Below are positions 6,001 through 36,701 of a DNA stretch of 64,000 nucleotides, in pieces. The notes under the pieces are model-generated. The model did no database searches and was not told the origin of the DNA. It saw only the letters and a list, made by a program, of their open reading frames with translations. Positions within the stretch are counted from its first letter, which is position 1; the number at the start of each line of letters is the position of its first letter. The position numbers were made by a program, and so were the translations under genes. The stretch covers positions 62,001-126,000 of the forward strand of contig NZ_LT607655.1 of assembly GCF_900095265.1 (NCBI RefSeq), in the 5' to 3' direction. The DNA is from Janthinobacterium sp. UMAB-56 (GTDB lineage: Bacteria > Pseudomonadota > Gammaproteobacteria > Burkholderiales > Burkholderiaceae_D).

Positions 6001-6105
6001 TATCACTCGAGTGACCTGAGCAACGCCAACGCCATCGACACGGCGCTGGTGCTGCTGAGTGGCGTGAACATCACGCAACTGACGGCGGCCAACTTCGTCG
6101 TCTGA
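1..6105 (+). CDS. Giant Ala-rich repeat protein, probable type I secretion substrate (5' partial)
   Basis: The frame is already open at base 1, so the gene begins upstream; about 2034 residues are visible. Composition is extreme: mostly Ala with Asp, Thr, Asn, Gln, Ser and Leu. I saw no Arg, no Cys and only about three Lys, so the protein is very acidic. Three blocks are visible. A 26-residue repeat centred on LTDAxAL runs to about base 2830, a 24-residue repeat centred on QADDAAAA runs from about 2920 to 5330, and the 26-residue type returns at about 5370-5690. The last 140 residues are different: mixed composition, aromatic residues, and a GGDVIDMSAI stretch like those near the C-terminus of type I secreted proteins. 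No RTX glycine nonapeptides are visible. Secretion genes follow immediately on the same strand. A long helical surface or biofilm protein is inferred; the function is unproven. Confidence 0.8.
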   Translation, partial: AAAVPGAQAAAGAATNDDNAAATAAAAAAASQAASTSAQNDDAAAVTAAANAAAAHAAADAAQTQADQTNAPALQAIADAADVVATAANTQAGLTDAAALAVVSANDAAAAAAATALADATDATALDLAATAAANAAVTAGIQASLTDAAALALISDADAANAAAVASVAAATDAAALAAASNAAATAAANAATAANATDATALGIAATAAANAATAASTQAGLTDAVTLTMAADAAAGVAAWDASIANATDAVALQAAANAAATAAANAQTQANMTDAPTLGLIADAATAAADAAQFQAGLTDAAALALISNADAAAAAAAALAASSDAAALDAAAALAATMAANAVVTASLSDAAALQISADAAASTAAAAATQAALTDAAALQVISDSDAAAALAAQNTANLTDAAALAAADAAAASDAAHAQTVADQTDVVALQQAADQADADAAAANAQASLLDVNVALNAFNLANLAALAANVTAGQTSVIDLTATVNALQLDADNADITAGLTDATLLAGISTADALTAAGLQATAELTDAGALIAAAAAAVSTAETAALLGGIDISAVSAAAAAQAAATTAAAQAALTDAGALGVISTADAAAEVAAQTAVTSLTAANTLAQNALATAQFIANQTDAVALGLVSSAADAAAAAAVTTAGQTDAIALSLISTADGLAAASAASLAALTDATALGLISTAEATAAAALQATANLTDAAALGLVATAAAAAANTATNVANLTDAVALGSVSAAATTAANTAAATAALTDATALGLVATADAALAATAQTTANLTDAVALGLVSTAANAAASAAAATANLTDAVALGTVSAAATAAANTAAATAALTDAVALGLTATVDAAAAAAAQTTANLTDAVALGLVASVNATAATAAAAVAGLTDAVLLGTQHTLDVTAATVAATKAALTDAAALTTVANNDAANAASLAAYSAAHPLDLVAALAATVATTTASLSLAAAQSAQADDAAAASTAATAAASLTALNNAIAADNAATAAATLALTSQAAATAAQLDDTAAATAAGVAATSLAAAQAAQAADAAAATTAATAASALAALNAALQADANAAATAATAVTASAATAAAIADDLAAATAATVANASQAAAQAAQLADNAAASTAAIAANALAALNAALADDAAAAAAVLNATNATAAAAAATAADTAAAAAAATAAISAAATQHAQADDAAAAAAALTAAVSLTATQAAQAADAAVGTTAATAAAALAALNQALADDSAAATAATVASNAQAALNTATTTLNAAILAASASLAATNAALADDATAASTAAAAAAAQVLADAAVLADVGLAAIATAANNALAAASAALAADDAAANAAHTAALSAAATLAAQLADTAALNAHAALTAAIANLNAAVTADTNATNADNDKTVKLNLLLTAQGAADDAAQANANAAAAHAALAAAQADDAAAATAAANAASAHAAAVAAQNADAAAAAATAQAAISLAATLNAQADDATAAAAATAAANAQLALDAALAADANVATTAAAAAAAQLAAQNAHDADAAAAAAAAAAAISLAATQAAQADDAAAALAAANAANAQAAHDNAVADDQAAAAAAAAAALAQAAATAAAAADATATASAAAAAAALLAAQAAQADDAAADLAAANAAAAAGAHAAAIAADALAASTAATAATALAAATAAQNDDDAAAAAAAQAAISLAQTQAAQADDAAAAAATVNANNAAAAALAAHAADAAAPLAQAQAAASLLALQAAQADDAAAASAAAAAAQAHANANAAYADDAAAAQAQADAQAADIALAQANALAAQTDANALAAVSNADAANAAAAQALADQTDAVALTQAADVAAAAALAAAQTADLTDANALHLAADAAAAAALQAQAQADLTDANSLTLAANADAAAAAAAQAQADLTDASQLFVLSQNALHNPLTVADFSTGLPAAGGDVIDMSAIADLTASVAVGVNLGTDFGADNLFIFDGTSVSIGAAASAIAADNSVLSGQGYIVIADAQNSGAVTVYHSSDLSNANAIDTALVLLSGVNITQLTAANFVV

Positions 6106-6214: not shown

Positions 6215-7507
6215 ATGAGATTACGCGCTTTCCCAGCATTCTCCTCACTGCCATGCATCGCAGCCTTGCTGGCGGCCGTGGCCATGGCAGCGGCCCCCTG
6301 TTTCGCCGGCGCCCAGGGCGCCACCGCCTGGAGCTTCGACCAGGTCTTGCAGCAGGCACTGCAAAGCCATCCGTCCGTCCAGGGCAAGCGTTCGGCGCAG
6401 GCGGCCGCGCGCGCCGAACTCGATGGCGCGCAGTGGCAACGCTTCCCCAGCCTCTCGGCCGAAGTCCCCACAGGTTCCCGGGAAACGGGCGGCGTGGTGC
6501 GCATCGAGCAGCCGCTGTGGAGCGGCGGGCGCATCGACGCCGGCATCGATGCCGCCGGCAGCCGGGTCGATGCGGCCGGCGCCGCCATCGAGGAAGAACG
6601 CCTGGCCCTGTCCCTGCGCGTGATTGCCGCCTACACCGAGGCGCTGCGCCAGACGGCCCGCGTGCGCTCGGCCGGGGAAGGCTTGCTGGAGCACCAGCGC
6701 CTGCTGGACATGATCAAGCGCCGCGTGGTGCAGTCGGTCAGTTCGCAGACGGACCAGCGCCTGGCAGAATCGCGCACCTACCAGGCGGCCAACGATGTGT
6801 CGAATGCGCGCCAGGCGCTGGAAAACGCGCTGGCGCAGCTGTCGCAACTGGCCGGCAAGCCGGTGCGCCTCGTCAGCGCCACCGGCATCGGCGTGGGCGA
6901 ACCCTTGCCCGACGCCAGCCTGGAACGGGTCATGCGCCAGGCCATCGATTACTCGCCCACCCTGCAGCGCCTCGATTTCGAGGCGCAGGCAGCCGATTCC
7001 GAGATCACCCTGCAGCGCTCGGCCTACATGCCGAAGGTGGTACTGCGCATGGAAAAGCCCACGGGCGGCATCAATGCCGACAACCGCACGCGCGCCATGC
7101 TGGTGCTGCAGGCGCAGCCGGGCGCCGGCCTGTCGGCCAAGGCTGGCGTGGACGCCGCCGTGGCCCGGCGCGAAGGCGCGCGCGCCGCGCACGATGCGGC
7201 CGAGCGCGAGGTGCGCGAGCGTTTCACGCTGGACTGGAACGAAGCCGAAGCGAGCCGCCAGCGCCTGGGCAATGCGGGCGAGGCCAGCACTACCTCGACG
7301 CAGGTATTCGAATCGTATGCGCGCCAGTACGTGATCGGCCGCAAGAGCTGGAACGACGTGCTCAACGCCGTGCGCGAAGCGACCCAGGCGCAGTTTTCAC
7401 TGGAAGACACGCGCGCGCAGGCGATTGCCGCCAGCCTGCGCCTGGCCGCGCAGACGGGCACCCTGGCCGGACGCACGGCGCCGGCTGGCCTGGCGCGCGC
7501 GAATTGA
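6215..7507 (+). CDS. TolC-family outer-membrane channel of a type I secretion system
   Basis: The 430-residue protein starts with a signal peptide: MRLR, then a hydrophobic stretch ending near AxA at about residues 26-34. I chose ATG 6215 over an in-frame GTG at 6197 because it puts the basic residues directly before the hydrophobic core. The mature part is rich in long amphipathic helices with Arg, Gln and Glu, and shows two similar halves typical of the OEP/TolC fold, including YTEALRQTARV and YVIGRKSWNDVLNA segments. The length fits LapE/TolC-type secretion channels. It lies between the giant repeat protein and the ABC and HlyD genes, so it most likely forms the outer-membrane exit of that exporter. 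Multidrug efflux is possible but less likely, since no RND pump is nearby. Confidence 0.85.
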   Translation: MRLRAFPAFSSLPCIAALLAAVAMAAAPCFAGAQGATAWSFDQVLQQALQSHPSVQGKRSAQAAARAELDGAQWQRFPSLSAEVPTGSRETGGVVRIEQPLWSGGRIDAGIDAAGSRVDAAGAAIEEERLALSLRVIAAYTEALRQTARVRSAGEGLLEHQRLLDMIKRRVVQSVSSQTDQRLAESRTYQAANDVSNARQALENALAQLSQLAGKPVRLVSATGIGVGEPLPDASLERVMRQAIDYSPTLQRLDFEAQAADSEITLQRSAYMPKVVLRMEKPTGGINADNRTRAMLVLQAQPGAGLSAKAGVDAAVARREGARAAHDAAEREVRERFTLDWNEAEASRQRLGNAGEASTTSTQVFESYARQYVIGRKSWNDVLNAVREATQAQFSLEDTRAQAIAASLRLAAQTGTLAGRTAPAGLARAN

Positions 7508-7535
7508 CAGCGACATGATGCAAACAGGAGACAGC

Positions 7536-9656
7536 GTGGATACCTCCATCAAACATGGCTTGCTGACATTGATCGAGCGGGCCGCCCGCCTGACGGGCCA
7601 GCACGTCGCTAGGGCGCGCCTGGCCGACTTGCAGCGCCAGCTCGATGACGTCGACGACAACGGCACACCCGGCGCGGTATTGACCACCATCTGGCAGGCG
7701 GCCGGGCTGGACGGCGCGGCGCGCCAGTTGCACGAGCCGACGCCGGGCGAACTGCCGTTCGCCGTGTATAGCGCCAGCACGGGCTGGGGCTTGCTGCAAT
7801 CGCGCGGCGCCGATGGTGCCTGGCGCGGCGAAGGCGTCGACGGGCGCTCCTTGCAACTGCTCTCGCTGGCCGGCCTGGCTTGCGTGGGCTTGCCACGCCG
7901 CAGTGAGAAAAGCGGCACCCGCCCCGGCGCCCTGGGCCTGGTGCGCAACGCCCTGTGGCTGAAGAAAGGCGTATTTGTCGACGCCGTGCTGGCCACCGCA
8001 CTGGTAACCCTGCTGACCATGGCCACCTCGCTGTTTTCCATGCAGGTGTACGACCGCGTCATCCCGAACCAGAGTTTCAGCACCCTGTGGGTGCTGGTGG
8101 TGGGCGTGGCCCTGTCGATCGGCCTGGAATTTCTCCTCAAGCAGGTGCGCAGCCGCATCGTCGACCACTCGTGCAATGACGTCGACCATGAACTGTCCGA
8201 GTGGTTTTTCCAGCGCATGCTGGGCATCCGCATGGAAGCGCGCCCGGCCTCAGTGGGCACCCTGGCGGCGCAGGTGAAAGGCTTTGAAATGGTGCGCGGC
8301 GTGCTCACCTCGACGTCGCTGTTCGTGCTGACGGACGTGCCTTTCGCCCTGATTTTCCTGGCCATGATCACCATCATCGGCGGCTGGCTCGTGGTGGTGC
8401 CGCTGGTGGCACTGCCGCTGGCCCTGGTGTGCGGCCTGATGTTCCAGCGGGCCATCCAGAACCATACGCGCAAGAACCTCAACGCCAGCAACCGCAAGGC
8501 GGGCTTGCTGGTGGAAGCCGTCGATGGCGTCGAAACGCTCAAGGGCAGCAGCGCTGAATGGATGATGCAGGCGCGCTGGGCCGACCTGGTGGCCGAGAGC
8601 AGCCACGCCGAACAGAATATCCGCGACTACGCAGCCCTGTCACAAAACATCACGGCCGCCTTCCAGCAGCTGACCAACGTGGCGCTGATCTCCATGGGCG
8701 CGTGGTTCGTGGCGGAAAACCAGATGACCATGGGCGCCCTGATGGCGTGCACCATCATCAGCAACCGCGCCCTGATGCCCATCGTGCAGCTGCCCGCCGT
8801 GATGGTGCAATGGGCGCATGCGCGCGCCTCGATCGATGGCCTGGAACAGGTCATCAGCCTGCCCAACGAGGCCGACAACGCGCAGTTCGCGCTGACGCCG
8901 CGCAGCCTCGATACGGGCGTGCGCTTCGAACGCATCCGTTTTACGTATGGCGGCGCGCAAAAGGTGGCGCTGGAAGTGGAAAACCTGGCCATCCGCCCCG
9001 GCGAACGGGTCGGCCTGGTCGGCGCCATCGGCTCGGGCAAGAGCACCTTGCTGAAACTGGCCTCGGGCCTGTACCAGCCGGCCGAAGGCAAGACCTATCT
9101 GGGCGACGTCGACATGGCCTTGCTGGCACCGGCCGTGGTGCGCGAAATGGTCGGCTACCTGCCGCAGGAAACGCGGCTGTTCAGCGGCAGCCTGCGCGAC
9201 AACCTGCTGCTGGGACTGGCCGATCCGGGCGAGGAAGCGATACTGGCGGCGGCCAGGCGCACGGGCTTGATCGAGCTGATACTGGGCCAGCCACGGGGGC
9301 TGGCGCTGGCCATCACCGAGGGCGGACGCGGCGTCTCGGGCGGCCAGAGGCAACTGATCGCCGTCACGCGCCTGTTGCTGGCCAAGCCGCGCATCTGGCT
9401 GCTCGACGAACCGACGGGCGCCATGGATGCAAAAACGGAATCTCGCATCGTGGGGCTATTGGGTGAACTGGCGGCCGAAGGCGTGACCATGGTCGCCACC
9501 ACGCACAAGAACGCCCTGCTGCCCCTGCTCGACCGCCTGGTGGTGCTGCAGGCGGGACGGGTGCTGCTCGACGGCCCGCGCGATGCCGTGCTGGCCAAGC
9601 TGTCGGGCAAGCCGCAGGCCGTGCCTGCGCCAGTGGCGCAAGGAGCAGTCGCATGA
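7536..9656 (+). CDS. Type I secretion ABC transporter (LapB/HlyB-like)
   Basis: The 706-residue protein begins at GTG 7536, supported by AGGAG five bases upstream; ATG codons at 7515 and 7518 are alternatives. The first ~130 residues resemble the C39-like domain of type I secretion transporters, but no catalytic Cys is seen there, which indicates substrate binding rather than cleavage. An ABC exporter membrane domain follows (about residues 150-430, with several hydrophobic segments). The ATPase domain carries Walker A GAIGSGKS, signature VSGGQRQ, Walker B IWLLDEPT and the H-loop TTHKN. It is the inner-membrane motor that exports an unfolded protein through the HlyD and TolC partners. The stop codon overlaps the next start (ATGA). 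The adjacent giant repeat protein is the obvious substrate. Confidence 0.92.
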   Translation: MDTSIKHGLLTLIERAARLTGQHVARARLADLQRQLDDVDDNGTPGAVLTTIWQAAGLDGAARQLHEPTPGELPFAVYSASTGWGLLQSRGADGAWRGEGVDGRSLQLLSLAGLACVGLPRRSEKSGTRPGALGLVRNALWLKKGVFVDAVLATALVTLLTMATSLFSMQVYDRVIPNQSFSTLWVLVVGVALSIGLEFLLKQVRSRIVDHSCNDVDHELSEWFFQRMLGIRMEARPASVGTLAAQVKGFEMVRGVLTSTSLFVLTDVPFALIFLAMITIIGGWLVVVPLVALPLALVCGLMFQRAIQNHTRKNLNASNRKAGLLVEAVDGVETLKGSSAEWMMQARWADLVAESSHAEQNIRDYAALSQNITAAFQQLTNVALISMGAWFVAENQMTMGALMACTIISNRALMPIVQLPAVMVQWAHARASIDGLEQVISLPNEADNAQFALTPRSLDTGVRFERIRFTYGGAQKVALEVENLAIRPGERVGLVGAIGSGKSTLLKLASGLYQPAEGKTYLGDVDMALLAPAVVREMVGYLPQETRLFSGSLRDNLLLGLADPGEEAILAAARRTGLIELILGQPRGLALAITEGGRGVSGGQRQLIAVTRLLLAKPRIWLLDEPTGAMDAKTESRIVGLLGELAAEGVTMVATTHKNALLPLLDRLVVLQAGRVLLDGPRDAVLAKLSGKPQAVPAPVAQGAVA

Positions 9657-10822
9657 AACTGGCCAAGGTCGAAACGCGGGAAGAAGCGAAACGGGGCCGC
9701 CTGCTGATCTGGAGCTGCACGGCCGCGCTGGCGGGCGTGATCGCCTGGGCGTCGTGGGCGGAGCTGGACCAGGTGACGCGCGCCAACGGCCAAGTGATCG
9801 CCAGTTCGCGCAACCAGATCATCCAGGTGGCCGATGGCGGCGTGCTGGCCGAACTGCGCGTGCATGAAGGCAGCGTGGTGAAAAAGGGCGAACTGCTGGC
9901 GCGCTTCGACCGCACGCGGGCCGAAACGAGCTACCTGGAAAGCACGGCCAAGGCGGCCGGACTGAAGGCGGCCGTGGCGCGCCTGCAGGCGGAAGTATTT
10001 GGCGGCGCGCCGAAGTTCCCGCCCGAACTGCAGGCGTTTCCTGAATTTCGCGCCAACCAGCTTGCCCTGTTCAGCAAGCGCCAGGGCGCCGTGCAGGCCG
10101 AGGTGAGCTCGCTGGACAGCGCCATGAAGCTGATCAAGGAAGAACTGGACATGAATCTGCCGCTGCTGGAAACGGGCGACGTGAGCCGCGCCGAGGTGCT
10201 GAAACTGCGGCGCCAAGTGGTCGACATCCAGGCGCAGATCACCAACCGGCGCAACAAATACCTGCAGGATAGCCAGACGGACCTGGTAAAAGCCCAGGAA
10301 GACCTGGCCGGCGTGCTGCAAACGGTGACGCAGCGCAAGGAACAGCTGGGCTCGACGGACATTTACGCCCCAACCGACGGCATCGTGCGCAATGTGCGGC
10401 TCACCACCCTGGGCGGCGTGGCCAAGCCGGGCGAGGAAATCCTGCAAATCGTGCCCACGGACGATGACCTGATCATCGAGGCAAAAGTCAAACCGGCCGA
10501 CATCGCCTTCATCAAGCCCGGCCTGCCGACGGCCGTGAAGCTGGACGCCTACGACTACGGCATTTACGGGCGTTTGCGCGGCACCGTCAGCTACATCAGC
10601 GCCGACACTTTAAGTGAAGACAACAAGGGCAACGAGCAGCCGTACTACCGCGTGCAGATCAAGACCAGCGGGCGCAAGCTGATGGGCAAGAACGGCGAGC
10701 CGATTCTGATCCAGCCCGGCATGACGGCCACCGTGGAAATCAACACGGGACGCAAGACGGTCTTGCGCTACCTGACGAAACCGATCACCAAGACGTTTTC
10801 AGAGTCGCTGGGGGAACGCTGA
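9653..10822 (+). CDS. HlyD-family membrane fusion protein of type I secretion
   Basis: This 389-residue periplasmic adaptor links the ABC transporter to the outer-membrane channel. There is one membrane segment near residues 18-35, then a lipoyl/biotinyl-like half (NQIIQVADGGVLAELRVHEGSVVKKGELL), a long coiled-coil region (about 90-230), and the second half plus beta barrel. The C-terminal PGMTATVEINTGRKTVLRYL signature is typical of the HlyD/LapC type. The start overlaps the ABC gene stop by four bases (ATGA), so the two are translationally coupled. The gene ends convergently with udk, only 12 bases apart, which marks the end of the secretion operon. Confidence 0.92.
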   Translation: MKLAKVETREEAKRGRLLIWSCTAALAGVIAWASWAELDQVTRANGQVIASSRNQIIQVADGGVLAELRVHEGSVVKKGELLARFDRTRAETSYLESTAKAAGLKAAVARLQAEVFGGAPKFPPELQAFPEFRANQLALFSKRQGAVQAEVSSLDSAMKLIKEELDMNLPLLETGDVSRAEVLKLRRQVVDIQAQITNRRNKYLQDSQTDLVKAQEDLAGVLQTVTQRKEQLGSTDIYAPTDGIVRNVRLTTLGGVAKPGEEILQIVPTDDDLIIEAKVKPADIAFIKPGLPTAVKLDAYDYGIYGRLRGTVSYISADTLSEDNKGNEQPYYRVQIKTSGRKLMGKNGEPILIQPGMTATVEINTGRKTVLRYLTKPITKTFSESLGER

Positions 10823-22421: not shown

Positions 22422-23054
22422 TCAGGTTCCGATAGGCATGATCCGGTACGCGCAGCGCCTTCCCCCTTCCAGCAGATATTCGCTGCGTTCCACCGTGCAA
22501 TCGTTCCCCAATACCCGCTGAAAGATGGCCAGCTCCGCGCGGCAGAAATTCTGGCATGCCGTGGCCGCCGCGCAAATCGGGCAATGGTTTTCCACCAGCA
22601 GCACACTGCCATCGTCCTGCGGCTCCGCATGGGCCATGTAACCCTCGCCATCGCGTGCCCGCGCCAGGCTATCGACTCTTTGCGCCAGCGCAAGTTGCGG
22701 ATCGACCAGCTTGGCATAGGCGGCTTCGCTGCTGCGCTCGCGCGCACCGATCAATTTATCCAGGCCCTCGTCGCCGAAAAGCGTTTTCACCTGCGTAATC
22801 AATTCCAAGGTCAGGTCGGCATGGCGGTCGGGAAAGCGCGCATGGCCCTCCCGCGTCAGCGCCCAGCGCCGCGATGGGCGCCCTACCTTGTCGGCCACAT
22901 CCTCGAACGCCACCAGGCCACGCTCCAGCGCCGCTTCCAGCTGGCGCCGCGCGCCCATGGACGTCATATCGAGCAAGGCCGCCAGTTGCTGCGCCGTCTG
23001 CGGCCCGCGCATCTTCAGCAGGAACAGGGTCTGCCCGGACATGCCCCCGCTCAT
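22422..23054 (-). CDS. Helix-turn-helix regulator with SufR-like cysteine cluster
   Basis: This 210-residue protein has an N-terminal winged helix (about 5-75: TAQQLAALLDMTSMGARRQLEAAL). The C-terminal cysteine cluster (NHCPICAAATACQNFCRAE, with a later Cys in RRCAYRI) resembles the Fe-S ligands of SufR-type regulators. ATG 23054 was chosen because it overlaps the stop of the MFS gene (ATGA), so the two genes are translationally coupled; ATG 23042 is a second option. It probably senses iron-sulfur or redox state and controls the coupled transporter. The palindrome at 24318-24337 is a candidate site. Confidence 0.8.
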   Translation of the reverse strand: MSGGMSGQTLFLLKMRGPQTAQQLAALLDMTSMGARRQLEAALERGLVAFEDVADKVGRPSRRWALTREGHARFPDRHADLTLELITQVKTLFGDEGLDKLIGARERSSEAAYAKLVDPQLALAQRVDSLARARDGEGYMAHAEPQDDGSVLLVENHCPICAAATACQNFCRAELAIFQRVLGNDCTVERSEYLLEGGRRCAYRIMPIGT

Positions 23055-24268
23055 GCCCGCGCCTTGGCGTCTACGGCGCCGTCCAGCTGCCGGCGCCAGG
23101 CGGCCATGCGCCAGGCGGCCCAGGCGGCGGACACGGCGCCGGCGACAAGGATCAGGCGCGTGTCGATCAGGGTCAGCACGGAGCCGCTCAAGGCCACGAC
23201 GATGTTGGCGATGCAAAAGGTGGTGGCCAGTAAACCCATCACGGCGCCCTGACCGTGCGCGCTGAAGCGTTCGGCACACCAGCCCTGTATCACCGTGTTG
23301 TACAAGGCATTAGGAATGCCGAACAGCACGATGGCGGCGATACCCACCCAGATATTGCCCAGCGCCAGCACGCCTACGGCCAGCGCCACGCCACAGGCAT
23401 ACCAGCTGGCGCGCAACAGCGGCGCATGGCGGCTGGGACCGCCCGCCAGCAAGGACGTGACCGTCATCGTGCCGCACAGGCCCACATTCACCCAGGCAAT
23501 CTCCTGCGCGTGGTAATTGGCCGTCTCGACCAGCCACAGCGGATAAAACTCGTAAAAGCTGGCCACGCCGCACGTCAGCGCCAGCTGCACGATAAACAAG
23601 GTGCGCAGCTCGGCATGGCGCAGCAGATTCAGGGAATGGCGGTCGCGCGCCACTTGCCACCACGACGTCGTCAGCAGGGACGGCGTTTCGCGCGGCAGGC
23701 CGGCGGCCACCAGCACGGCGACCAGCATCAGGGCGGCGGCGGCGATCCAGAACGGCACCGTCACGCCCCAATGCAGGGTCGCGCCCGCCAGGATCGGGCC
23801 CACCAGCCAGCCCAGGTAAAACGCGCCATTCAGCCACGACATGGCACGCAGGCGCAATGGTCCCGTCAGTTGGTCGGCCAGCATGGCGCGCGCCACGGCG
23901 CCGTTGCCTTCCAGCAAACCCGTGATGAAACGGGCGACGATGAACAGCGGGTAGGACTGGATCACCAGCGCCCAGGCCGTGATGGCGTGGCCGATGGCGG
24001 CGCCCACGGCCGTGCGCATCAACAAGGGGCGGCGGCCATAGCGGTCGGACAAAGGGCCCAGCAAGGCTGAGCCGATCAGCAAGCCCAGGGGATTGATGGT
24101 CAGCGCCAGGCCGAACAGTAATTTGGATGGCAAGCCCATAAAATTATTGAAGGCGTTCGGCGCCTCGGCGGCGAACAGAGGCGGCAGGATAGGATACGGC
24201 AGGGAAGCGCCGATGGTCGACAGCAGCGCCAGCAAACAGGCGGCGGAAATCAGGATGAGGTTTTTCAT
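23051..24268 (-). CDS. Major facilitator superfamily transporter
   Basis: The 405-residue protein has about 12 hydrophobic segments. The loop 2-3 signature is GPLSDRYGRRPLLM (near residues 73-86), followed by RFITGLLEGNGAVARAMLADQ. These features fit the drug:H+ antiporter/TCR-Tet-like branch, but the substrate cannot be read from sequence. ATG 24268 (MKNLILIS) places the first membrane segment at the N-terminus. It is cotranscribed with the downstream SufR-like regulator. Confidence 0.88.
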   Translation of the reverse strand: MKNLILISAACLLALLSTIGASLPYPILPPLFAAEAPNAFNNFMGLPSKLLFGLALTINPLGLLIGSALLGPLSDRYGRRPLLMRTAVGAAIGHAITAWALVIQSYPLFIVARFITGLLEGNGAVARAMLADQLTGPLRLRAMSWLNGAFYLGWLVGPILAGATLHWGVTVPFWIAAAALMLVAVLVAAGLPRETPSLLTTSWWQVARDRHSLNLLRHAELRTLFIVQLALTCGVASFYEFYPLWLVETANYHAQEIAWVNVGLCGTMTVTSLLAGGPSRHAPLLRASWYACGVALAVGVLALGNIWVGIAAIVLFGIPNALYNTVIQGWCAERFSAHGQGAVMGLLATTFCIANIVVALSGSVLTLIDTRLILVAGAVSAAWAAWRMAAWRRQLDGAVDAKARA

Positions 24269-24317
24269 GCAGGCTCGATGTGTATTATCTGGCAAGATTA
24301 CGGGAGTTGGCCATATA

Positions 24318-24337
24318 AGTAAACTAAAATGTTTACT
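24318..24337. promoter_or_regulatory. 20-bp palindromic operator candidate
   Basis: AGTAAAC and GTTTACT form a perfect 7-bp inverted repeat around the 6-base spacer TAAAAT. It lies 50 bases upstream of the MFS gene and 80 bases upstream of the divergent SUKH gene, in an AT-rich patch of a GC-rich genome. It is a likely operator of the SufR-like regulator. Confidence 0.6.
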
Positions 24338-24416: not shown

Positions 24417-25121
24417 ATGACACTGTCAGAAATTGAACACCAATACGACTTCAGCTATCCTGCACTGTACCGCCAACTGGAGCGCGACGGCATGCTCGAC
24501 GTGGGCGCATATGGCCCCGACTGGTACAAGCTGGTCTATCCCACCTTGAAAGACCGGCCCACCCTGCTGCTGCACGCGGACGATGTCGAATTGCTCGCTA
24601 TCGAGGCCGTTGCCGACGCCGTGGCGAGCCTGCTGGACACGGACGACTACCGGAAAATCGATCCCGCGTTCCAGTTCATTCCGTTTGCGCAAACGGGTGC
24701 CGGCGACCACTACTGTTTTTTCGCATCAAGCCAGCACGATGGCGAGCTGCCCATCGTGCTGCTGTGGCATGACCAGAATGAAGCCCAATACCTGGCCAAA
24801 AACCTGCAAGACTTCCTGTTTCACATGTTGTTGAATAGCATGGCGGACCAGGATACGTACAACGAGGTCAGCGACGAGGAGTTCAGGGATCAACTGGCAA
24901 AAACCCTGGGCACGCACGCGCGCTATCTGACGGCGCGGCAAGCCGAGGTGCTGCAAGCCTTGCTGGCCAGGGACATCATCGATTACGAAGTGACATTGCC
25001 GAGGGGCAGAAAAGAAGCGCACCGGGGCTTGCTGACCGATATCGAGCTGGCCAGCCTGCGCGAGGAACTGATTCCTTACGATAAGTTCGACAGCAGTTTT
25101 GCCTACAGTACGGTTGCCTGA
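24417..25121 (+). CDS. SUKH (SMI1/KNR4-like) domain protein
   Basis: The 234-residue cytosolic protein has a SUKH-type core (about 1-145): MTLSEIEHQYDFSYPALYRQL, then FQFIPFAQTGAGDHYCFFAS, then LPIVLLWHDQNEAQYLAKNLQDFL. About 90 acidic and helical residues follow. SUKH proteins are often immunity proteins against polymorphic toxins or contact-dependent nucleases, but solitary housekeeping forms exist. No toxin gene is directly adjacent; a nuclease-helicase pair follows 92 bases later. Whether they are functionally linked is unknown. Confidence 0.7.
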   Translation: MTLSEIEHQYDFSYPALYRQLERDGMLDVGAYGPDWYKLVYPTLKDRPTLLLHADDVELLAIEAVADAVASLLDTDDYRKIDPAFQFIPFAQTGAGDHYCFFASSQHDGELPIVLLWHDQNEAQYLAKNLQDFLFHMLLNSMADQDTYNEVSDEEFRDQLAKTLGTHARYLTARQAEVLQALLARDIIDYEVTLPRGRKEAHRGLLTDIELASLREELIPYDKFDSSFAYSTVA

Positions 25122-25213
25122 ACATAATTCGCTGGGCAAGCGGCGAACTAAGGTTTAAACTGTATATAAACACAGTAAAACCCATCACCTAGCTAGCTGC
25201 CCTATTGCCCCCC

Positions 25214-26866
25214 ATGTTGAGAGTCCTGGAAAATCCCCTGTACTATCTGGATAATTTCCAGGATGTGCTGAACTGGATCGGCGCGCGTTACGCCGATCTG
25301 CTGAGTGCTGAAGAAACGCAGTTCATCGCCGCATTCGGCGCACTGCCGCAGCCTTCGCGGGCTCTGTTCGTGCGCCTCGTCATGCGCAAGGGCTGTCTGT
25401 TCCGCGCCAGCAAGCTCAACTACCCGGAAATCGGCGACACGCGCGCGGCCGCCCTGCCCCTGCTGGCCTTGGCATGGGTGGAAGCCGATCCCGTCATTAC
25501 GCTCGACGAGCTGTTCGAGCTGCTGCTGAAAGGGGAAATCGCCCAGGCCTTCGTGCTCGCCGCGCCCCTGAAGGCGGCGCGCAAGGCGGAGCAACTGGAG
25601 GCCTTGCGCGAACAGCATGCGGAAGCGAAACCGTTTTCCGCATGGCATCCGGCCGGTACCGATGTGCTGTACCGTATCGGCTTGCAGCCCCTGTGCGACC
25701 GCCTGCGCCTGATTTACTTTGGCAATTATCACCAGGACTGGTCGGAATTCGTGCTGTCCGACCTCGGTGTGTATCAATACGAAAAAGTGGAATTCTCGCC
25801 GCAATCGCGCGGTTTTCGCACGCGCCAGGATATCGAGCACTATGCAGTGCTGCACCAGTGCCGCGAACGCTACAACGACAGTGCGCCGGCAGACGAAGTG
25901 CTGCAGGAACTGGCGGCACTGCCCTTGTCCCGGGACAATACCTGGCTGGCCAGCCGGCGCGACAAGCTGCGTTTCCAGATCGCCCAGCACCTGGAAAAAT
26001 GCCAGGACTGGCAGGCCGCCTATCATGCCTATGCCGATTGCCGCTATCCGGGCGCGCGGGGCCGCGCCATCCGCGTGCTGGAAAAAGATGCACAGCCGCA
26101 AGCAGCCTATGACAGGCTGCTCATCGCCCTGGCAGCGCCGGAAAGCGAAGCGGAACAGCAATTGCTGCTGCGCATGGCGCCCCGTTTGCGACGCAAGCTG
26201 GGCCATGCGAAGCTGGCAGCCAGCGCGGCGGCGGCCGTGGAGCGCATCGACCTGCTGCTGCCGCATCCAGGCGAAGCATGCTATGTGGAAGCGGTGGTGC
26301 AACAGCACTTGATGCAGGATGACGCGCCCGTGTACTACGTGGAAAACACCCTGATCAACTCGCTGTTCGGCCTGCTGTGCTGGCCCGCCATCTTCAAGGC
26401 CATGCCGGGCGCCTTCTTCCACCCGTTCCACCGTGGGCCGGCCGACTTGCACAGCGCCGATTTTTACCCGCGCCGCAGCACGGACTTCGCCGCCTGCCTG
26501 GCACAACTGGACGACGGCAGCTACCACGCAGCCATCCGCGCCATGCGTGCCGCCAAGCATGGCATCGTCTCACCCTTCGTCAGCTGGGAGGTGCTGGACG
26601 ATGGCTTGCTGGACCTGGCACTGGCCTGCATCCCGGCCGCGCACCTGAAGAAGGCGTTTGAACGCATCTTGCTCGACATTAAAAGCAACCGCAGCGGCTT
26701 TCCCGACCTGATCCAGTTCTGGCCAGCCGAGCAGCGCTACCGCATGATCGAAGTCAAGGGTCCGGGCGACCGCCTGCAAGACAACCAGCTGCGCTGGATC
26801 GCCTATTGCGCCGAGCATGCCATGCCCGTCAGCGTGTGCTACCTGCAGTGGCAGGTGGCCACATGA
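25214..26866 (+). CDS. VRR-NUC domain nuclease (FAN1-like)
   Basis: The 550-residue protein ends with a VRR-NUC nuclease domain: GFPDL near 495-499 and EVKGP at 513-517, giving the PD-(D/E)xK catalytic residues. The N-terminal half (FLVR-like MRKGCLFRASKLNYPEIGDTR, about 60-85) resembles the SAP/wHTH region of FAN1, and the middle is helical and TPR-like. Eukaryotic FAN1 cuts DNA at interstrand crosslinks and flaps, and bacterial homologues act similarly in vitro. ATG 25214 is used; a TTG nine bases upstream is the alternative. The stop overlaps the start of the helicase gene (ATGA), so the two are coupled. Confidence 0.9.
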   Translation: MLRVLENPLYYLDNFQDVLNWIGARYADLLSAEETQFIAAFGALPQPSRALFVRLVMRKGCLFRASKLNYPEIGDTRAAALPLLALAWVEADPVITLDELFELLLKGEIAQAFVLAAPLKAARKAEQLEALREQHAEAKPFSAWHPAGTDVLYRIGLQPLCDRLRLIYFGNYHQDWSEFVLSDLGVYQYEKVEFSPQSRGFRTRQDIEHYAVLHQCRERYNDSAPADEVLQELAALPLSRDNTWLASRRDKLRFQIAQHLEKCQDWQAAYHAYADCRYPGARGRAIRVLEKDAQPQAAYDRLLIALAAPESEAEQQLLLRMAPRLRRKLGHAKLAASAAAAVERIDLLLPHPGEACYVEAVVQQHLMQDDAPVYYVENTLINSLFGLLCWPAIFKAMPGAFFHPFHRGPADLHSADFYPRRSTDFAACLAQLDDGSYHAAIRAMRAAKHGIVSPFVSWEVLDDGLLDLALACIPAAHLKKAFERILLDIKSNRSGFPDLIQFWPAEQRYRMIEVKGPGDRLQDNQLRWIAYCAEHAMPVSVCYLQWQVAT

Positions 26867-29136
26867 GCGCCAGGCGGTACACGATCGCCGTGCGCGCCCT
26901 GTGCGAATTCACGGCCAAGGTAGGCGACCTGGACTTGCGCTTTACACCCTCGCCTACGGCGCAGGAAGGCATGGCCGGCCATGCCACCGTCACCGGCCGG
27001 CGCGACGACGATTACCAGCGCGAAATCAGTCTTGCCGGCGACTTCGGCCCCCTCCATGTGCGGGGCCGCGCCGATGGCTACGACCCCGCGCGGCGCCAGC
27101 TGGAAGAAATCAAGACCTACCGTGGCGACTTGGGCACCATGCCCGCCAACCACCGCCAGCTGCACTGGGCGCAGGCGCGCATCTACGGCCACTTGCTGTG
27201 CCAGCAGCTGAACTTGCCCATGCTGCGCGTGGCGCTCGTGTATTTCGACATCGCCAGCCAGAAGGAAACGCTCATGCATGAGGAATGCACGGCCGAAGCA
27301 CTGCGTCTGTTCTTCGAACAGCATTGCGCCCTCTTCCTCGACTGGGCCGAGCAGGAAATGGCACACCGCGCCAACCGCGATGTGCAGCTCAGCAGCATGG
27401 CCTTTCCCCATGCCAACTTTCGCCCGGGCCAGCGCCAGCTGGCCGAGGCCATGTACAAGGCCAGCAGCCGTGGCTGCGGCTTGCTGGCGCAGGCGCCGAC
27501 GGGTATCGGCAAGACGGTGGGCAGCCTGTTTCCCATGTTGAAAGCCACGGCCGCGCATGGCCTGGATAAACTGTTTTTCCTCGCCGCCAAGGTGCCCGGG
27601 CGGCAAATGGCGCTCGACGCCTGCGCCATCCTGAAAGACAGCGCCCCGCTGCTGCCTTTGCGCGTGCTGGAACTGAGCGCCAAGACCAGCGCCTGCGAAC
27701 ATCCTGACAAAGCCTGCCACGGTGAATCGTGTCCGCTGGCCCAGGGCTTTTACGACCGTTTGCCGCTGGCGCGCGAGGTGGCGCTGGCCAGCGGCTTGAT
27801 CCTGGACAAGGAAGCCGTGCGCGCCATCGCCTTGCAGCAAGGTATTTGCCCGTATTACCTGGGCATGGAGCTGGCGCGCTGGAGCGATGTCGTCATCGGC
27901 GACTACAATTACTATTTCGACCTCAGCGCCATGCTGTACGGCATGACCCTGGCCCACGACTGGAAAGTCAATGTGCTGGTCGACGAAGCGCACAATATGG
28001 TGTCGCGCGCGCGCAGCATGTATAGCGCTGAACTGGCGCAGATCGACCTGAAAATGCTGCGCAAGTTCGCGCCCGATGCCTTGAAAAAGCCGCTGGACCG
28101 CCTCGCGCGCCAGTGGACGGCCCTGCTCAAGGAACAGGATGGCGATTACCACGTGCATCCCGCCTTGCCGGACAAATTCTTTGGCGCCCTGCAAGGACTT
28201 GCCACGGCCATCGGCGATTACCTGGCCGAACATGCGGCGGCCCTCGATGAAGACTTGCAGCGCTTTTATTTCGACGTGCTGCTGATCAACCGCCTGGCGG
28301 AGAGTTTCGGCGAGCATTCGCTGTTCGATGTCAGCAAGATAAATACGGGATCCACTGCTGGCTCCACCGTCTGCATCCGCAACATTGTGCCCGCTCCCTT
28401 CCTCAAGGAACGCTTCGCGGCCAGCCACAGCACGGCCCTGTTTTCCGCCACCCTGAGTCCGTGGAATTACTACAGCGACACACTGGGCATGCCGGCCGAT
28501 ACAGCCTGGGTCGACGTGGAATCGCCGTTCCAGGCGGCGCAATTGTCCGTGCGCGTGGCCGACAGCATTTCCACGCGCTATCAGCACCGCGCCGCTTCGC
28601 TACTGCCCATCGCCCAGCTGATGGCGCGCCAATATGCGGAAACGCCGGGCAACTACCTGGCCTTCTTCAGCAGTTTTGATTACATGGAAAAGACAGCCAC
28701 CCTGTTCGCCCAGCATTATCCCGACGTGCCCACCTGGCAACAGCCGCGCCGCATGGATGATGCTGCACGCGCGCAATTCCTCGGTCGTTTCGGCCTGGAC
28801 ACGCGCGGCATCGGCTTTGCCGTGCTGGGCGGCGCCTTTGGCGAAGGCATCGACTTGCCCGGCGCACGCCTGATCGGTGCCTTCATCGCCACCCTGGGTT
28901 TGCCGCAGATCAATCCCGTCAACGAGCAGATCCGCCAGCGCATGGGCGACATCTTCGGCGCCGGCTACGACTACACGTATCTGTATCCGGGCATGCAGAA
29001 GGTGGTGCAGGCGGCCGGCCGGGTCATCCGCACCCAGTCGGACAAGGGCGTCGTGTACTTGATCGACGACCGCTTTTCCCGCCCGGAAATCCGACAACTC
29101 TTGCCCACGTGGTGGGATGTGCAGCTAGCCAACTAA
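26863..29136 (+). CDS. Nuclease-helicase fusion: PD-(D/E)xK domain plus DinG/XPD-type helicase
   Basis: The 757-residue protein carries an N-terminal PD-(D/E)xK nuclease domain, with D71, E82 and K84 (GRADG then EEIKT) and a following QLHWAQARIYG motif like the QxxxY of RecB/Cas4 nucleases. The SF2 helicase core follows: Walker A APTGIGKT (211-218), four cysteines for a 4Fe-4S cluster (C278, C285, C290, C329), DEAH box D374-H377, and the late motif QAAGRVIRTQSDKGV. This is the architecture of XPD/DinG 5'-3' DNA helicases. Coupled to a FAN1-like nuclease, it probably unwinds damaged DNA for cleavage. Its end overlaps the convergent LytTR gene by 12 bases. Confidence 0.9.
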   Translation: MSARRYTIAVRALCEFTAKVGDLDLRFTPSPTAQEGMAGHATVTGRRDDDYQREISLAGDFGPLHVRGRADGYDPARRQLEEIKTYRGDLGTMPANHRQLHWAQARIYGHLLCQQLNLPMLRVALVYFDIASQKETLMHEECTAEALRLFFEQHCALFLDWAEQEMAHRANRDVQLSSMAFPHANFRPGQRQLAEAMYKASSRGCGLLAQAPTGIGKTVGSLFPMLKATAAHGLDKLFFLAAKVPGRQMALDACAILKDSAPLLPLRVLELSAKTSACEHPDKACHGESCPLAQGFYDRLPLAREVALASGLILDKEAVRAIALQQGICPYYLGMELARWSDVVIGDYNYYFDLSAMLYGMTLAHDWKVNVLVDEAHNMVSRARSMYSAELAQIDLKMLRKFAPDALKKPLDRLARQWTALLKEQDGDYHVHPALPDKFFGALQGLATAIGDYLAEHAAALDEDLQRFYFDVLLINRLAESFGEHSLFDVSKINTGSTAGSTVCIRNIVPAPFLKERFAASHSTALFSATLSPWNYYSDTLGMPADTAWVDVESPFQAAQLSVRVADSISTRYQHRAASLLPIAQLMARQYAETPGNYLAFFSSFDYMEKTATLFAQHYPDVPTWQQPRRMDDAARAQFLGRFGLDTRGIGFAVLGGAFGEGIDLPGARLIGAFIATLGLPQINPVNEQIRQRMGDIFGAGYDYTYLYPGMQKVVQAAGRVIRTQSDKGVVYLIDDRFSRPEIRQLLPTWWDVQLAN

Positions 29137-33522: not shown

Positions 33523-35469
33523 CTATGACTTGGGCGCAACAATCTTCTGTTTGAGCTGCAGGGCGGCGATGTAGCGGCTCCGGTATGCGGGGTCTTCCGG
33601 CGTCAGCAAAGTGAGCCTGTCACGCGCTCGGGTGGCGGCCACATAAAAACGGTTTTCTTCTTCCAGCGGGTCGGTCTTGCTGCGCGGGAATTCATCGACG
33701 GCCAAGTAGGGCAAAATCACATGGTTATATTCCAGGCCCTTGATCTGGTCGATGCAGGCGATCACCAGCCTGGCCTTGCCACTGGTTACGGCAACAGCCT
33801 CTTCCATCTCGCCCAGCCAGCCGGCAAAGCCCCCCAGCGCCACACCCGCCTCGCTGCAGACGGCAATAAAGCCGTGCAGGGAACGGGCCACCACCCGCGC
33901 CTGGGCCGGGTCGACATAGATGCGGCGCGCCGTCTGTTCCAGCTGCATCAAGCCAAAGATGTGCCGCAGGGCGTCGCCCGCCAGGGCATCGGCGGGCAGT
34001 GCGCGCAGATAATCGACCGCGGCCAGGGTCAGCGCCGCCTTGTCCTGGTTCTGCGATTTGGCCAACTGGTTCGTCAAGAATCCTTCCAGCAAGTCGGGAT
34101 AGTTGGCCACGTCGGCCTTGGCTTGCTGCAATTCCGTGCGCGTAAACGGAATTTCCGCGAACGCCACCAGGGCTTCGAGTATCTCGCCGCGGCGCGGGCC
34201 GCTCTTGATCGCATGCAAGTCCTTGCGGGCGATGGCCACCATGCCGCGCAGCATCAGCACTTCCAGGCTCAGCAGATAGCTGTTCATGTCCACCAGGCCA
34301 TACGCGATGCCGCTCTGGAACAGCGCCGTTTCCACACGAATGGCCTGGTCGCGGTCGCGCAGCAAGATCGCCGTGGTGCCAGCATGCGCGTGTTCGAGCG
34401 CGGCGATCATCTGGGCGCTGCACGCCTGCGGCTGCGCATGGTCGTACTCGAGCAGCTCGATGTGGGTGGCACGCGACAGGGCCGACACGCTGGCCTTGTT
34501 CTTCAGCACGCCCACCGCCTGCGCCAGTTGCGGGCCGTAGCGGTAGGAGGCCGTCAGCGGCAAACGCTGCAAGGCGGGGAATTCCTGCTCGAAGCGCTGG
34601 CGCAGGAAGCGGTGGTCGGCGCCCGACCACGTGTAGATCACTTGATCCTTGTCGCCGGCGCCGCAGAAAAACGCGTTGCCCCGCCGTATCAGCATGGTCA
34701 GCAGGCGGAACGACGCTTCGTTCAAATCGTGCAATTCATCGGCGACGATGATCTGGAAGGCCGGCAATTGCTGGCGCAAGGGCTCGTCGCCATCGAGCAT
34801 GCGTACCAGGTCGTAGGTGGCATCGAACGGTGCGCGGAACTGGATATCGCCCGTGTCGGCGCCGCGCAAGCCTTCGTATTCGCGCAGCCACAGATAGTGC
34901 GTGCGCGACATGCCCAGCAGCTCCAGATTATCGTCGAGGGAGTTGCTCTCGAAGTCAGGATTTTGAAAATCCAGGCGTGCCTTGGTGCGCAACTGCAGTT
35001 TCAAAAACTCGGCAATCGACCCATTCGTCGTATTGATTTCCAACGGATAGCGGTGTGCGTATTTCTCCGCCACGACTTCCAGCGCTTCCCAGGCCACGGG
35101 GCGCAGCTCTTCATCGCGGCGCATGGATGCCACCTGCCTGTTTTCCAGCTGCAGCAGCACCTTGGCGGCAAAGGCGTCGAAGGTGTCGATGACGAGGCGC
35201 TTGACGACGCCCAGCGGCACGCCCACTTCCAGCAGGCGCTGACGCAGGGCCACGCGCGCCGCTTCCGTGAACACAAGGGCCAGCATGCGTTCGGGCGCGC
35301 GGCCACGGTGCAGCGCCTCGGCCAGGCGCAGGGCCAGGGTCGTCGTCTTGGCGGCGCCAGCATTGGCGTCGATCAGCACCACTTTCTTTTGCGCCGTCTG
35401 GATAGCCACCTGTTCCGGCGTGGGCGTGATGCGTTTGGGAATAAACTGCGGGGCGTTATCTGTACTCAA
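33523..35469 (-). CDS. UvrD/Rep-like SF1 helicase with atypical Walker A
   Basis: The 648-residue protein looks like an SF1A DNA helicase. It has an N-terminal Q motif (TPEQVAIQTAQ), a Walker A region reading ANAGAAKT at 35-42, motif Ia VFTEAARVALRQRL, motif II VADELHDLNEASF, motif III GDKDQVIYTWSGA, and motif VI VAATRARDRLTLL. Both usual Walker A glycines are Ala (A35, A40), which is unusual for an active ATPase. The start is TTG 35469, supported by AGGA five bases upstream; the open frame further upstream overlaps the EgtB-like gene and does not look like helicase. Together these define a divergent subfamily. It starts just after the EgtB-like gene with no gap for a strong promoter. Confidence 0.82.
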   Translation of the reverse strand: MSTDNAPQFIPKRITPTPEQVAIQTAQKKVVLIDANAGAAKTTTLALRLAEALHRGRAPERMLALVFTEAARVALRQRLLEVGVPLGVVKRLVIDTFDAFAAKVLLQLENRQVASMRRDEELRPVAWEALEVVAEKYAHRYPLEINTTNGSIAEFLKLQLRTKARLDFQNPDFESNSLDDNLELLGMSRTHYLWLREYEGLRGADTGDIQFRAPFDATYDLVRMLDGDEPLRQQLPAFQIIVADELHDLNEASFRLLTMLIRRGNAFFCGAGDKDQVIYTWSGADHRFLRQRFEQEFPALQRLPLTASYRYGPQLAQAVGVLKNKASVSALSRATHIELLEYDHAQPQACSAQMIAALEHAHAGTTAILLRDRDQAIRVETALFQSGIAYGLVDMNSYLLSLEVLMLRGMVAIARKDLHAIKSGPRRGEILEALVAFAEIPFTRTELQQAKADVANYPDLLEGFLTNQLAKSQNQDKAALTLAAVDYLRALPADALAGDALRHIFGLMQLEQTARRIYVDPAQARVVARSLHGFIAVCSEAGVALGGFAGWLGEMEEAVAVTSGKARLVIACIDQIKGLEYNHVILPYLAVDEFPRSKTDPLEEENRFYVAATRARDRLTLLTPEDPAYRSRYIAALQLKQKIVAPKS

Positions 35470-35504
35470 AAGAATTCCTGAAAGGGTTGCTGCTCTTCCT
35501 GCCG

Positions 35505-36701
35505 TTACCAGGCGCAGGTGCGCAGGCCGGCAAAGATGTCGCCGCGCTCGGGCGCGTGGAAAGCGCGCATGCGCGCCGAATGCAGGCGCGGCGGCGTGGC
35601 GAAGGCAGCGCCGCGCAGCACCTGGTGCCGCATGAAATACGGCGCCGAGTATTCGCGCCAGCTGTCCACCGCAAAGCCCGGATACGGTTCGAACGGCGTC
35701 GCCGTCCACTCCCATACCTGTCCCCAATGAAAACGGGGATGGCCGGACAGCGCAGCATACTCCCATTCGGCCTCGGTCGCCAGGCGCCGCCCCGCCCAGG
35801 CGCAGTACGCTTGCGCTTCATACAGGTTGATGTGGCGCACGGCTTCATTCGGCGGCAAGGTCGTGCGCTGGCCGAAACGCATGGTGCGCCACTGCGTCGC
35901 TTCGCGCAACCAGTACAAAGGAGAGGAACGCTCCTGCTGCATCAGCCAGGCGCTGCCGGCCGCGCTCCAGAACTGGCGGTTCTGGTAGCCGCCGTCGGCG
36001 ACAAAATCGGCAAACTGGGCGTTCGAGACGGGTAAGGCATCCATGCTGAACGGCGGCACGTAGCAGGCATGGGGCGGCGATTCATTGTCGAAGGCAAACC
36101 CGGCGCCGCGCGGCGAACCCAGTTCGATACTGCCGCCAGGAAAAGCGATCTGCCCTGCCCCTGGCGGCAATGCCGGGCTGGCCGCCAGACATTCCGGCGC
36201 TTCCAGGCCCAGCCATTGCAAACCTGCCAGCATTTCTTCGCCACACATGTCTTCATGCGCCAAGGCCAGCCGGTATGGCGCCAGGGCGCTGTCGACATTG
36301 GCTTCGCGCGAGAGTTTATCGAGGACCCTGTCGTACACTTCGTGGCAATACGTTTTCACGGCGCCCGGACTGGGCAGTTCCAGCTTCCAGCGCGCGCCAT
36401 GCTCGACCATGTTGGCGTCGAACAAGTCGTCGCCGCGCGTCAGCAGGGAGTTATAAACGGCGTCGGCCGGATGGCTGGAAGCGGCTTCGCGCAAGATGAA
36501 CCACTCGGCAAACCAGGCGATATGCGCGAGTTGCCACAAGGGCGGATTGAGGCGCGGATGGCGGGGCAAGCCGGCCACCACATCCAGGCCGGCAGTGACG
36601 TAAGAGTCGAACAGGGACAGGGTGTCCTGGCGCGCGGCCTGCAGCGACTGGGCCAGTTGCTGCGCGCCGGCATGGCGAAAAGAGGCGTTGATTAAATTCA
36701 T
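35505..36701 (-). CDS. EgtB/SenA-like nonheme-iron synthase (DinB plus FGE-sulfatase domains)
   Basis: The 398-residue protein has an N-terminal DinB-like helical domain (1-165) and a C-terminal formylglycine-generating-enzyme-like domain (about 185-398). The latter has EWEYAALSGHPRFHWGQVWEWTATPF and a late RAFHAPERGDIFAGLR segment. EgtB joins Cys or gamma-Glu-Cys to trimethylhistidine; SenA uses a selenosugar to make selenoneine. Iron in EgtB is bound by three His. H60 (LAHIAW) and H149 (AHEDM) are present, but the third position is C153, because HExxH reads HEDMC. The codon is TGT, two changes away from a His codon. No egtD, senB or senC gene is in the window. The substrate is therefore uncertain. 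Confidence 0.78.
   Translation of the reverse strand: MNLINASFRHAGAQQLAQSLQAARQDTLSLFDSYVTAGLDVVAGLPRHPRLNPPLWQLAHIAWFAEWFILREAASSHPADAVYNSLLTRGDDLFDANMVEHGARWKLELPSPGAVKTYCHEVYDRVLDKLSREANVDSALAPYRLALAHEDMCGEEMLAGLQWLGLEAPECLAASPALPPGAGQIAFPGGSIELGSPRGAGFAFDNESPPHACYVPPFSMDALPVSNAQFADFVADGGYQNRQFWSAAGSAWLMQQERSSPLYWLREATQWRTMRFGQRTTLPPNEAVRHINLYEAQAYCAWAGRRLATEAEWEYAALSGHPRFHWGQVWEWTATPFEPYPGFAVDSWREYSAPYFMRHQVLRGAAFATPPRLHSARMRAFHAPERGDIFAGLRTCAW

Follow-up and report, generated by a model that had tools for sequence, protein, structure and literature searches.

A FAN1-type nuclease gene coupled to an EndoDinG-type nuclease-helicase gene behind an SOS-type site in Janthinobacterium: a probable DNA repair operon

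A stretch of 64,000 nucleotides from Janthinobacterium sp. UMAB-56 (contig NZ_LT607655.1, positions 62,001 to 126,000; hereafter the window) was analysed around three neighbouring genes, which encode a SUKH protein, a FAN1-type nuclease and an EndoDinG-type nuclease-helicase (Table 1). An earlier note, made from the sequence alone, had placed three such genes here, and all three could be confirmed, together with the overlap of the FAN1 and helicase genes in the four bases ATGA (26863–26866). The note had overlooked an SOS/LexA-type site, which lies between the SUKH gene and the FAN1 gene. The protein families, the active-site residues, the linkage of the two DNA enzymes across related genomes and the conserved site indicate that the FAN1 and helicase genes probably constitute an SOS-controlled two-gene operon for flap and crosslink DNA repair.

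Table 1. Features of the locus; positions are counted from the first base of the window.
Feature	Position	Strand	Basis or remarks
SUKH-1 (SMI1/KNR4) protein, 234 aa	24417..25121	+	Pfam SMI1_KNR4; lineage-specific neighbour, assigned outside the operon
SOS/LexA-type site AACTGTATATAAACACAGTA	25158..25177	+	Core CTGT-N8-ACAG at 25160-25175, between the SUKH and FAN1 genes
FAN1, predicted 5'-flap/crosslink nuclease of the PaFAN1 type	25214..26866	+	Pfam domains, 4r89 match, catalytic residues
EndoDinG-type protein, 757 aa, with predicted N-terminal PD-(D/E)xK nuclease and XPD/DinG-family Fe-S helicase	26863..29136	+	ATG start

The FAN1 open reading frame (ORF) was open from a TTG at 25205, and the ATG at 25214 was preferred as the likely start because M4 was invariant in an alignment of ten sequences. 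Pfam analysis revealed, in order and over the cut-off, the domains FAN1_HTH (residues 12–93, E 3e-37), FANC_SAP (97–147, E 6.2e-16) and VRR_NUC (438–547, E 2e-32), and the protein matched Pseudomonas aeruginosa FAN1 (PaFAN1; 4r89) end to end over residues 7–551 of 553 (E 2.7e-187). Residues E380, D501, E516 and K518 (TTG-based numbering) were invariant in ten sequences and aligned with E386, D507, E522 and K524, the metal-binding residues given for PaFAN1 in passages of PMC4348246 and PMC9635880. By this domain order and the catalytic E-D-E-K set the protein belongs to the FAN1 type, for which flap cutting and crosslink unhooking can be predicted; the nearest named relatives of the gene were from Janthinobacterium. 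FAN1 enzymes are described in parts of PMC9635880 as cutting 5' flaps, as having 5'-3' exonuclease activity and as acting on crosslinks, and the KIAA1018/FAN1 group is placed there beside DNA-metabolism genes; in the same source and in passages of PMC12796719, PaFAN1 is presented as a crosslink-repair enzyme. As a separate observation, a remnant of a FAN1 C-terminus (query residues 514–550, 51% identity) was present between the intact FAN1 and helicase genes of one genome (G421, locus L205, 4428–4538), a pattern that would fit a FAN1 duplication followed by decay of one copy.

In the helicase protein, Pfam called Helicase_C_2 (1.4e-37) and DEAD_2 (1e-10) over the cut-off and no nuclease domain. 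The N-terminal nuclease domain was assigned because of invariant residues and an end-to-end match to PDB entry 9kqh over residues 6–751 (E 2.9e-104); H40, E54, D71, E82, K84, Q104 and Y108 were invariant in 14 sequences, the window protein and 13 others with identities as low as 31%. Among the Fe-S cysteines, C278, C290 and C329 were invariant in all 14 sequences and C285 was present in 11, all four being found within the XPD/DinG core of the window protein, and the Walker A and DEAH-type motifs were kept across the same set. The H, E, D, E, K residue set that PMC11981726 gives for the EndoDinG subgroup (section 3.7) could be recognized, the residues having been paired with the strand positions of that review by motif rather than by structure. 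The protein can thus be assigned to the EndoDinG type, with a predicted endonuclease activity; for the Bdellovibrio EndoDinG, such activity is cited in PMC11981726 as unpublished data. Consequently, the two PD-(D/E)xK nucleases and the Fe-S helicase that the earlier note had read at this locus hold at the level of sequence, through the domains, the invariant residues and the 9kqh match.

The linkage of the two genes was evaluated at increasing distance. Within the genus set of 40 genomes, own genome included, FAN1 and the helicase were both present in every genome. A second set, which overlaps with the genus set, comprised 80 named loci, chosen as the best among 170 that tblastn had confirmed out of 194 stretches. 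In 79 of these the helicase started no more than 150 bases from FAN1, the exception being at a contig end; the pairing is not due to chance, because the helicase follows in 79 of 80 loci that were fetched with FAN1. The pair was also adjacent in all 18 genomes of a Pseudomonas genus. Wider samples comprised 150 genomes of the order and 370 of the class, with the own genome counted in both and FAN1 counted as matches over the cut-off (8 and 17, respectively; PF21315 at E ≤ 0.001 gave 10 and 18). In the order sample, the helicase was found in 14 of the 150 genomes and FAN1 in 8, all eight of which also carried the helicase, adjacent in seven; the hypergeometric value for this co-occurrence was 5.7e-10, kinship being ignored. 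In the class sample, 12 of the 17 FAN1 genes had an adjoining helicase (one of them about 1.1 kb away), where at most two helicase candidates were scored per genome and the helicase of genome G414, missed by that search, was recovered by tblastn. Protein distances of FAN1 and the helicase were correlated over 78 loci (r 0.95; 0 of 999 permutations as high), much of which is expected from shared ancestry alone. Plasmid records contained a FAN1 match in 14 of 72,556, of which 11 were on replicons larger than 1 Mb and two records were typed conjugative; three of these loci were opened, and that of Burkholderia multivorans contained the helicase and a CTGT-N8-ACAG site. The reverse dependence was looser, as 6 of the 14 helicase genomes of the order sample had no FAN1 over the cut-off, and a tblastn search of the 6.8–8.5 kb fetched around those six helicases also gave none. 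FAN1 of the PaFAN1 type therefore appears to need the helicase, since the FAN1 genes of the class sample that lacked it were divergent and all eight FAN1 genomes of the order had it, whereas the helicase can stand alone.

The SOS/LexA-type site ends 36 bases before the FAN1 ATG, its core 38 bases before. An exact CTGT-N8-ACAG core occurred once in the window, which alone is unremarkable, as 44 of 100 shuffled sequences held at least one. The pattern used for the genome scan was built on the LexA consensus with up to three mismatches allowed; in the own genome it produced 33 strand-hits, the FAN1 site among them, compared to one for the reversed pattern. At this stringency it preceded genes recognized by eye as recA, imuA, dnaE2 and dinB, and the boxes of FAN1 and dnaE2 differed in one base of 20. 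The exact core was present upstream of FAN1 in 39 of 40 genus genomes (400 bases searched) and in 75 of 80 named loci (200 bases searched), compared to 10 of 4391 control stretches; site counts across related sequences, which are not independent, are descriptions and not probabilities. The control stretches were drawn from the FAN1 loci themselves and some may contain true FAN1 sites, a few loci being off-centre, so that the control is conservative. The core also preceded FAN1 in 14 of the 18 Pseudomonas genomes. Among the order- and class-sample loci with an exact box, that of G445 had a box extending to the probable start codon. FAN1 and the helicase were on different contigs in genome G155 of the order sample, and each of the two had an exact box of its own, as shared control of both genes would require. 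The site is thus firm for the sampled Oxalobacteraceae and Pseudomonas relatives and patchy elsewhere, and as a LexA-type operator in the promoter region, judged by that consensus, it makes the pair a candidate for the SOS regulon. A promoter scan returned sites around 25099–25255, which were not used in any reading.

In P. aeruginosa, PA1865, the gene to which the PaFAN1 papers are tied, was induced by UV-C and ciprofloxacin according to passages of PMC12796719, in which PA1866 is listed with it. The LexA-regulated PA1044/PA1045 of that species had been considered as the FAN1-helicase pair and was dropped on the basis of that link to PA1865 (PMC12796719, in part).

SOS-type boxes could also be observed at other places. 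A divergent FAN1 gene without a helicase nearby (genome G313, L200, 2159–2178) had the box TACTGTTTTTATAGACAGTA just upstream. Two short contigs of the own genome (C29 and C30; L080 and L081) carried near-identical ORFs by SOS-type boxes that differed in a single base, and the two may be copies of the same repeat or mobile element. In Pseudomonas resinovorans (L181), the FAN1 box was followed about 4.8 kb further downstream by a second exact box (10712–10727), which by eye separates an endonuclease-I-like gene from a small ORF; this spacing was repeated in three more Pseudomonas genomes.

The SUKH protein matched Pfam SMI1_KNR4 with 38.7 bits (cut-off 25.4; E 1.7e-9; residues 3–134 of 234), which places it in the SUKH superfamily by sequence, and nothing in Pfam was over the cut-off for its last 100 residues. 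The AlphaFold model, built with 18 close sequences, was poor, with a mean predicted local distance difference test score (pLDDT) of 56.9, and the SUKH profile found a single match in the PDB, at E 0.17. SUKH proteins form a family with immunity functions; inspection by eye showed no toxin-like gene adjoining the SUKH gene, although no dedicated toxin search was made. A full-length SUKH gene was present in 25 of the 40 genus genomes, always beside FAN1, while weak partial matches elsewhere (E 1e-5 to 1e-3) in 21 genus genomes, G006 among them, were left uncounted. It was found in 11 of the 80 named loci, all from Janthinobacterium, and in 12 of 195 family genomes, which represented one genus of 44; plasmid records yielded no SUKH match at 1e-5. 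The earlier note had counted SUKH as a member of the cluster and had itself named its absence from most homologous loci as telling against the proposal, and such absence is what these counts revealed.

When mapped onto the FAN1 tree, which held 39 genes (G037 was left out, its FAN1 being in pieces), SUKH presence needed two changes, interpreted as a single gain and a single loss. Genome G006, which lies inside the SUKH clade and has no full-length SUKH gene there, kept sequence like both flanks of the missing gene together with an intact site and operon, and this flanking sequence reads as a deletion scar. In the other SUKH-less genomes of the genus, the divergent MFS gene adjoined FAN1 in 7 of 14. 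The median ratio of nonsynonymous to synonymous substitution rates (dN/dS) was 0.23 over 300 pairs of 25 SUKH genes, which corresponds to purifying selection and thus to a working gene. Such selection, the same strand, the 92-base distance from FAN1 (which the earlier note had given correctly, with the ATG at 25214 as start), the lack of any listed terminator-like site in that gap and, in the family genomes at E ≤ 1e-8, an occurrence solely at the FAN1-adjacent place could also be accommodated if SUKH acted locally, within one clade of Janthinobacterium, to regulate or inhibit FAN1 or the helicase, an arrangement compatible with repair and with replication-fork functions of the pair alike. However, the site and the block preceding it separate SUKH from FAN1 and persist where SUKH is absent, and 15 of the 40 genus genomes lack the gene, which makes a regulatory role very unlikely. 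Tree, scar and distribution instead indicate that SUKH is a separate, later-arrived and lineage-specific neighbour upstream of the site and not a member of the operon.

On the other side of the SUKH gene, an inverted repeat AGTAAAC-N6-GTTTACT was observed at 24318–24337, beside the divergent MFS gene (23051–24271, minus strand). In five SUKH-less relatives the left arm of this repeat was kept and the right arm was changed; it is possibly an operator of the transporter.

The favoured mechanism is as follows. LexA bound at 25158–25177 would repress the operon, and DNA damage that activates RecA would relieve the repression. The Fe-S helicase of EndoDinG may then travel 5'-3' on single-stranded DNA beside a lesion and open the duplex into 5' flaps or splayed junctions, while its Cas4/EXO5-like nuclease domain may trim strands. 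FAN1 would cut a few bases beyond the junction and could step past an interstrand crosslink, resulting in unhooking, after which recombination and the SOS translesion polymerases would complete the repair; SUKH would stay outside this scheme. More tentatively, FAN1 and EndoDinG could be joined physically in a single machine that is induced by SOS and corresponds, in compact bacterial form, to the FAN1, FANCJ and DNA2 activities of eukaryotes, and in which the helicase with its built-in nuclease opens and trims DNA for unhooking by FAN1; such a partnership is possible, yet we would not expect it on balance. The unwind-and-cut module and the crosslink repair that the earlier note had considered thus gained support from the families, the active sites, the co-occurrence and the SOS-type site, whereas its suggestion of an anti-phage role and the inclusion of SUKH did not stand.

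The same operon could be induced by SOS for the processing of replication forks, flaps or R-loops under general stress, crosslinks being a minor substrate or none. The flap-cutting and exonuclease activities of FAN1 enzymes (PMC9635880, in part) suit such a role, as do the induction of the P. aeruginosa gene by UV-C and ciprofloxacin (PMC12796719, in part) and the links of DinG to fork rescue and R-loops that are set out in passages of PMC11981726, and the sequence holds no crosslink-specific feature. Set against this is the end-to-end match to PaFAN1, which the quoted parts of PMC9635880 and PMC12796719 describe in crosslink repair. A general fork or R-loop function is therefore regarded as unlikely, although it deserves serious consideration, and an SOS-controlled repair operon for flaps and crosslinks is preferred.

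Several observations weigh against that preferred operon. In the class sample, 5 of the 17 FAN1 genes, all divergent (23–28% identity), had no such helicase in the 8.5–9 kb fetched, and the Vibrio and Bradyrhizobium loci, the other two opened among the plasmid records, had neither helicase nor box within 4 kb of FAN1. The site becomes patchy further out, the exact box being found at 4 of 8 FAN1 loci in the order sample, at 4 of 17 in the class sample (two of the 17 with little upstream sequence) and upstream of one of the six helicases without FAN1 in the order sample. The four Pseudomonas genomes of 18 that had no exact box were the closest to PaFAN1, and this absence in the relatives nearest P. 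aeruginosa also counts against the site as the explanation of the PA1865/PA1866 induction. PA1865 was furthermore repressed by hydrogen peroxide, and PA1865/PA1866 were placed outside three known damage regulons, in passages of PMC12796719. Finally, two PADLOC models gave matches at the locus: the type IV DinG model PDLC01439 (typeIV_DinG) matched helicase residues 176–750 at 5.8e-116, and the candidate model PDC-M40A matched 53 residues of SUKH (86–138) at 2.1e-6.

Together with the immunity-protein family of SUKH, these PADLOC matches would fit an anti-phage or conflict system of all three genes, in which SUKH restrains two nucleases that destroy invading DNA. EndoDinG-like matches could also be found in 18 of 50,697 phage records, all less than 60% identical; they were given little weight because of this low identity and because 15 were listed without annotation and the one opened was an 'unverified' contig. 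VRR-Nuc domains, moreover, occur in antibacterial effectors of the type VI secretion system (T6SS; PMC9635880, in part). The distribution nevertheless differs from the patchy, mobile, island-bound pattern of a defence system, as the pair was present in 40 of 40 genus genomes and SUKH alone was patchy (25 of 40), with its presence in 11 of the 80 named loci and its single loss leaving the operon in place. No PADLOC model matched FAN1, and 9 of the ten flanking proteins scanned were without a match, the tenth being a UvrD-type helicase that matched GajB models; no FAN1 relative could be found among 63 viral-contig candidates, for which FAN1 alone was scanned. The conserved co-occurrence that the earlier note had thought worth seeking in the neighbourhood is thus real for FAN1 and the helicase (79 of 80 adjacent), whereas the defence island that it had also envisaged did not appear among the flanking proteins scanned. 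With this genus-wide distribution, neighbourhood and viral result, the anti-phage reading is highly improbable and was rejected.

Both the FAN1 and the EndoDinG families are already known. A full-text literature search found no description of a FAN1-EndoDinG operon or of its SOS control, and most subscription papers lay outside its coverage, so that this is weak evidence of novelty. In the portions consulted, the literature on bacterial FAN1 deals with structures and test-tube cutting, and a cellular partner and a switch are not told there. The tight linkage of FAN1 to a helicase-nuclease, with an SOS-type site in front, provides it with a testable partner and a testable switch, and the site offers a testable explanation for the damage induction of PA1865/PA1866, which the available parts of PMC12796719 leave unexplained. 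Furthermore, the SUKH gene is cleared out of the account of the repair operon.

Elsewhere in the window, the UvrD-type helicase mentioned above (33523–35766, minus strand) matched the PADLOC GajB models at 3.5e-32; its neighbours by eye were an EgtB-like protein, phosphate-regulation genes and an epimerase-like gene, and no GajA partner was apparent among them. At the beginning of the window (10–6105, plus strand), an ORF of 2031 residues consisted almost entirely of Ala/Asp/Thr-rich repeats with a G+C content of 0.72–0.74; its product may be a repetitive protein that is secreted or exposed at the surface, and the ORF was followed by what by eye is a secretion-type ABC transporter (7425–9656).

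The locus can be compared with four known systems. The type IV CRISPR protein CasDinG (Csf4) resembles the helicase in the core that scores with the PADLOC typeIV_DinG model; it differs in that the NCBIfam Csf4 model TIGR03117 reached only 14.3 bits (cut-off 400), and this score, together with the absence of any cas model among the ten neighbours scanned, speaks against an identity as type IV CRISPR-Cas DinG (CRISPR arrays were not searched for). The T6SS effectors of the TseV and Plu1493 group share the VRR-Nuc domain with FAN1 but are described in passages of PMC9635880 as having a PAAR-like part and secretion and immunity gene neighbours, whereas the window protein falls with the KIAA1018/FAN1 group. 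The EndoDinG subgroup (Bdellovibrio, PMC11981726; PDB 9kqh by sequence) is alike in the N-terminal PD-(D/E)xK nuclease with its H-E-D-E-K set, the Fe-S cysteines and the XPD/DinG core; the main text of PMC11981726 contains no mention of FAN1 or VRR, nor is a link to SOS given in its section on EndoDinG, and the Janthinobacterium protein differs from the reviewed ones in its coupling to FAN1 and in the SOS-type site ahead of the pair. PaFAN1 (PDB 4R89, 4R8A and 5Y7G; PA1865 according to passages of PMC12796719) is alike in the end-to-end match, the FAN1_HTH, SAP and VRR-Nuc domains and the catalytic residues. PaFAN1 was compared as a protein, and the Janthinobacterium FAN1 differs from it as the first gene of a probable operon, with EndoDinG behind it and an exact SOS-type site in front.

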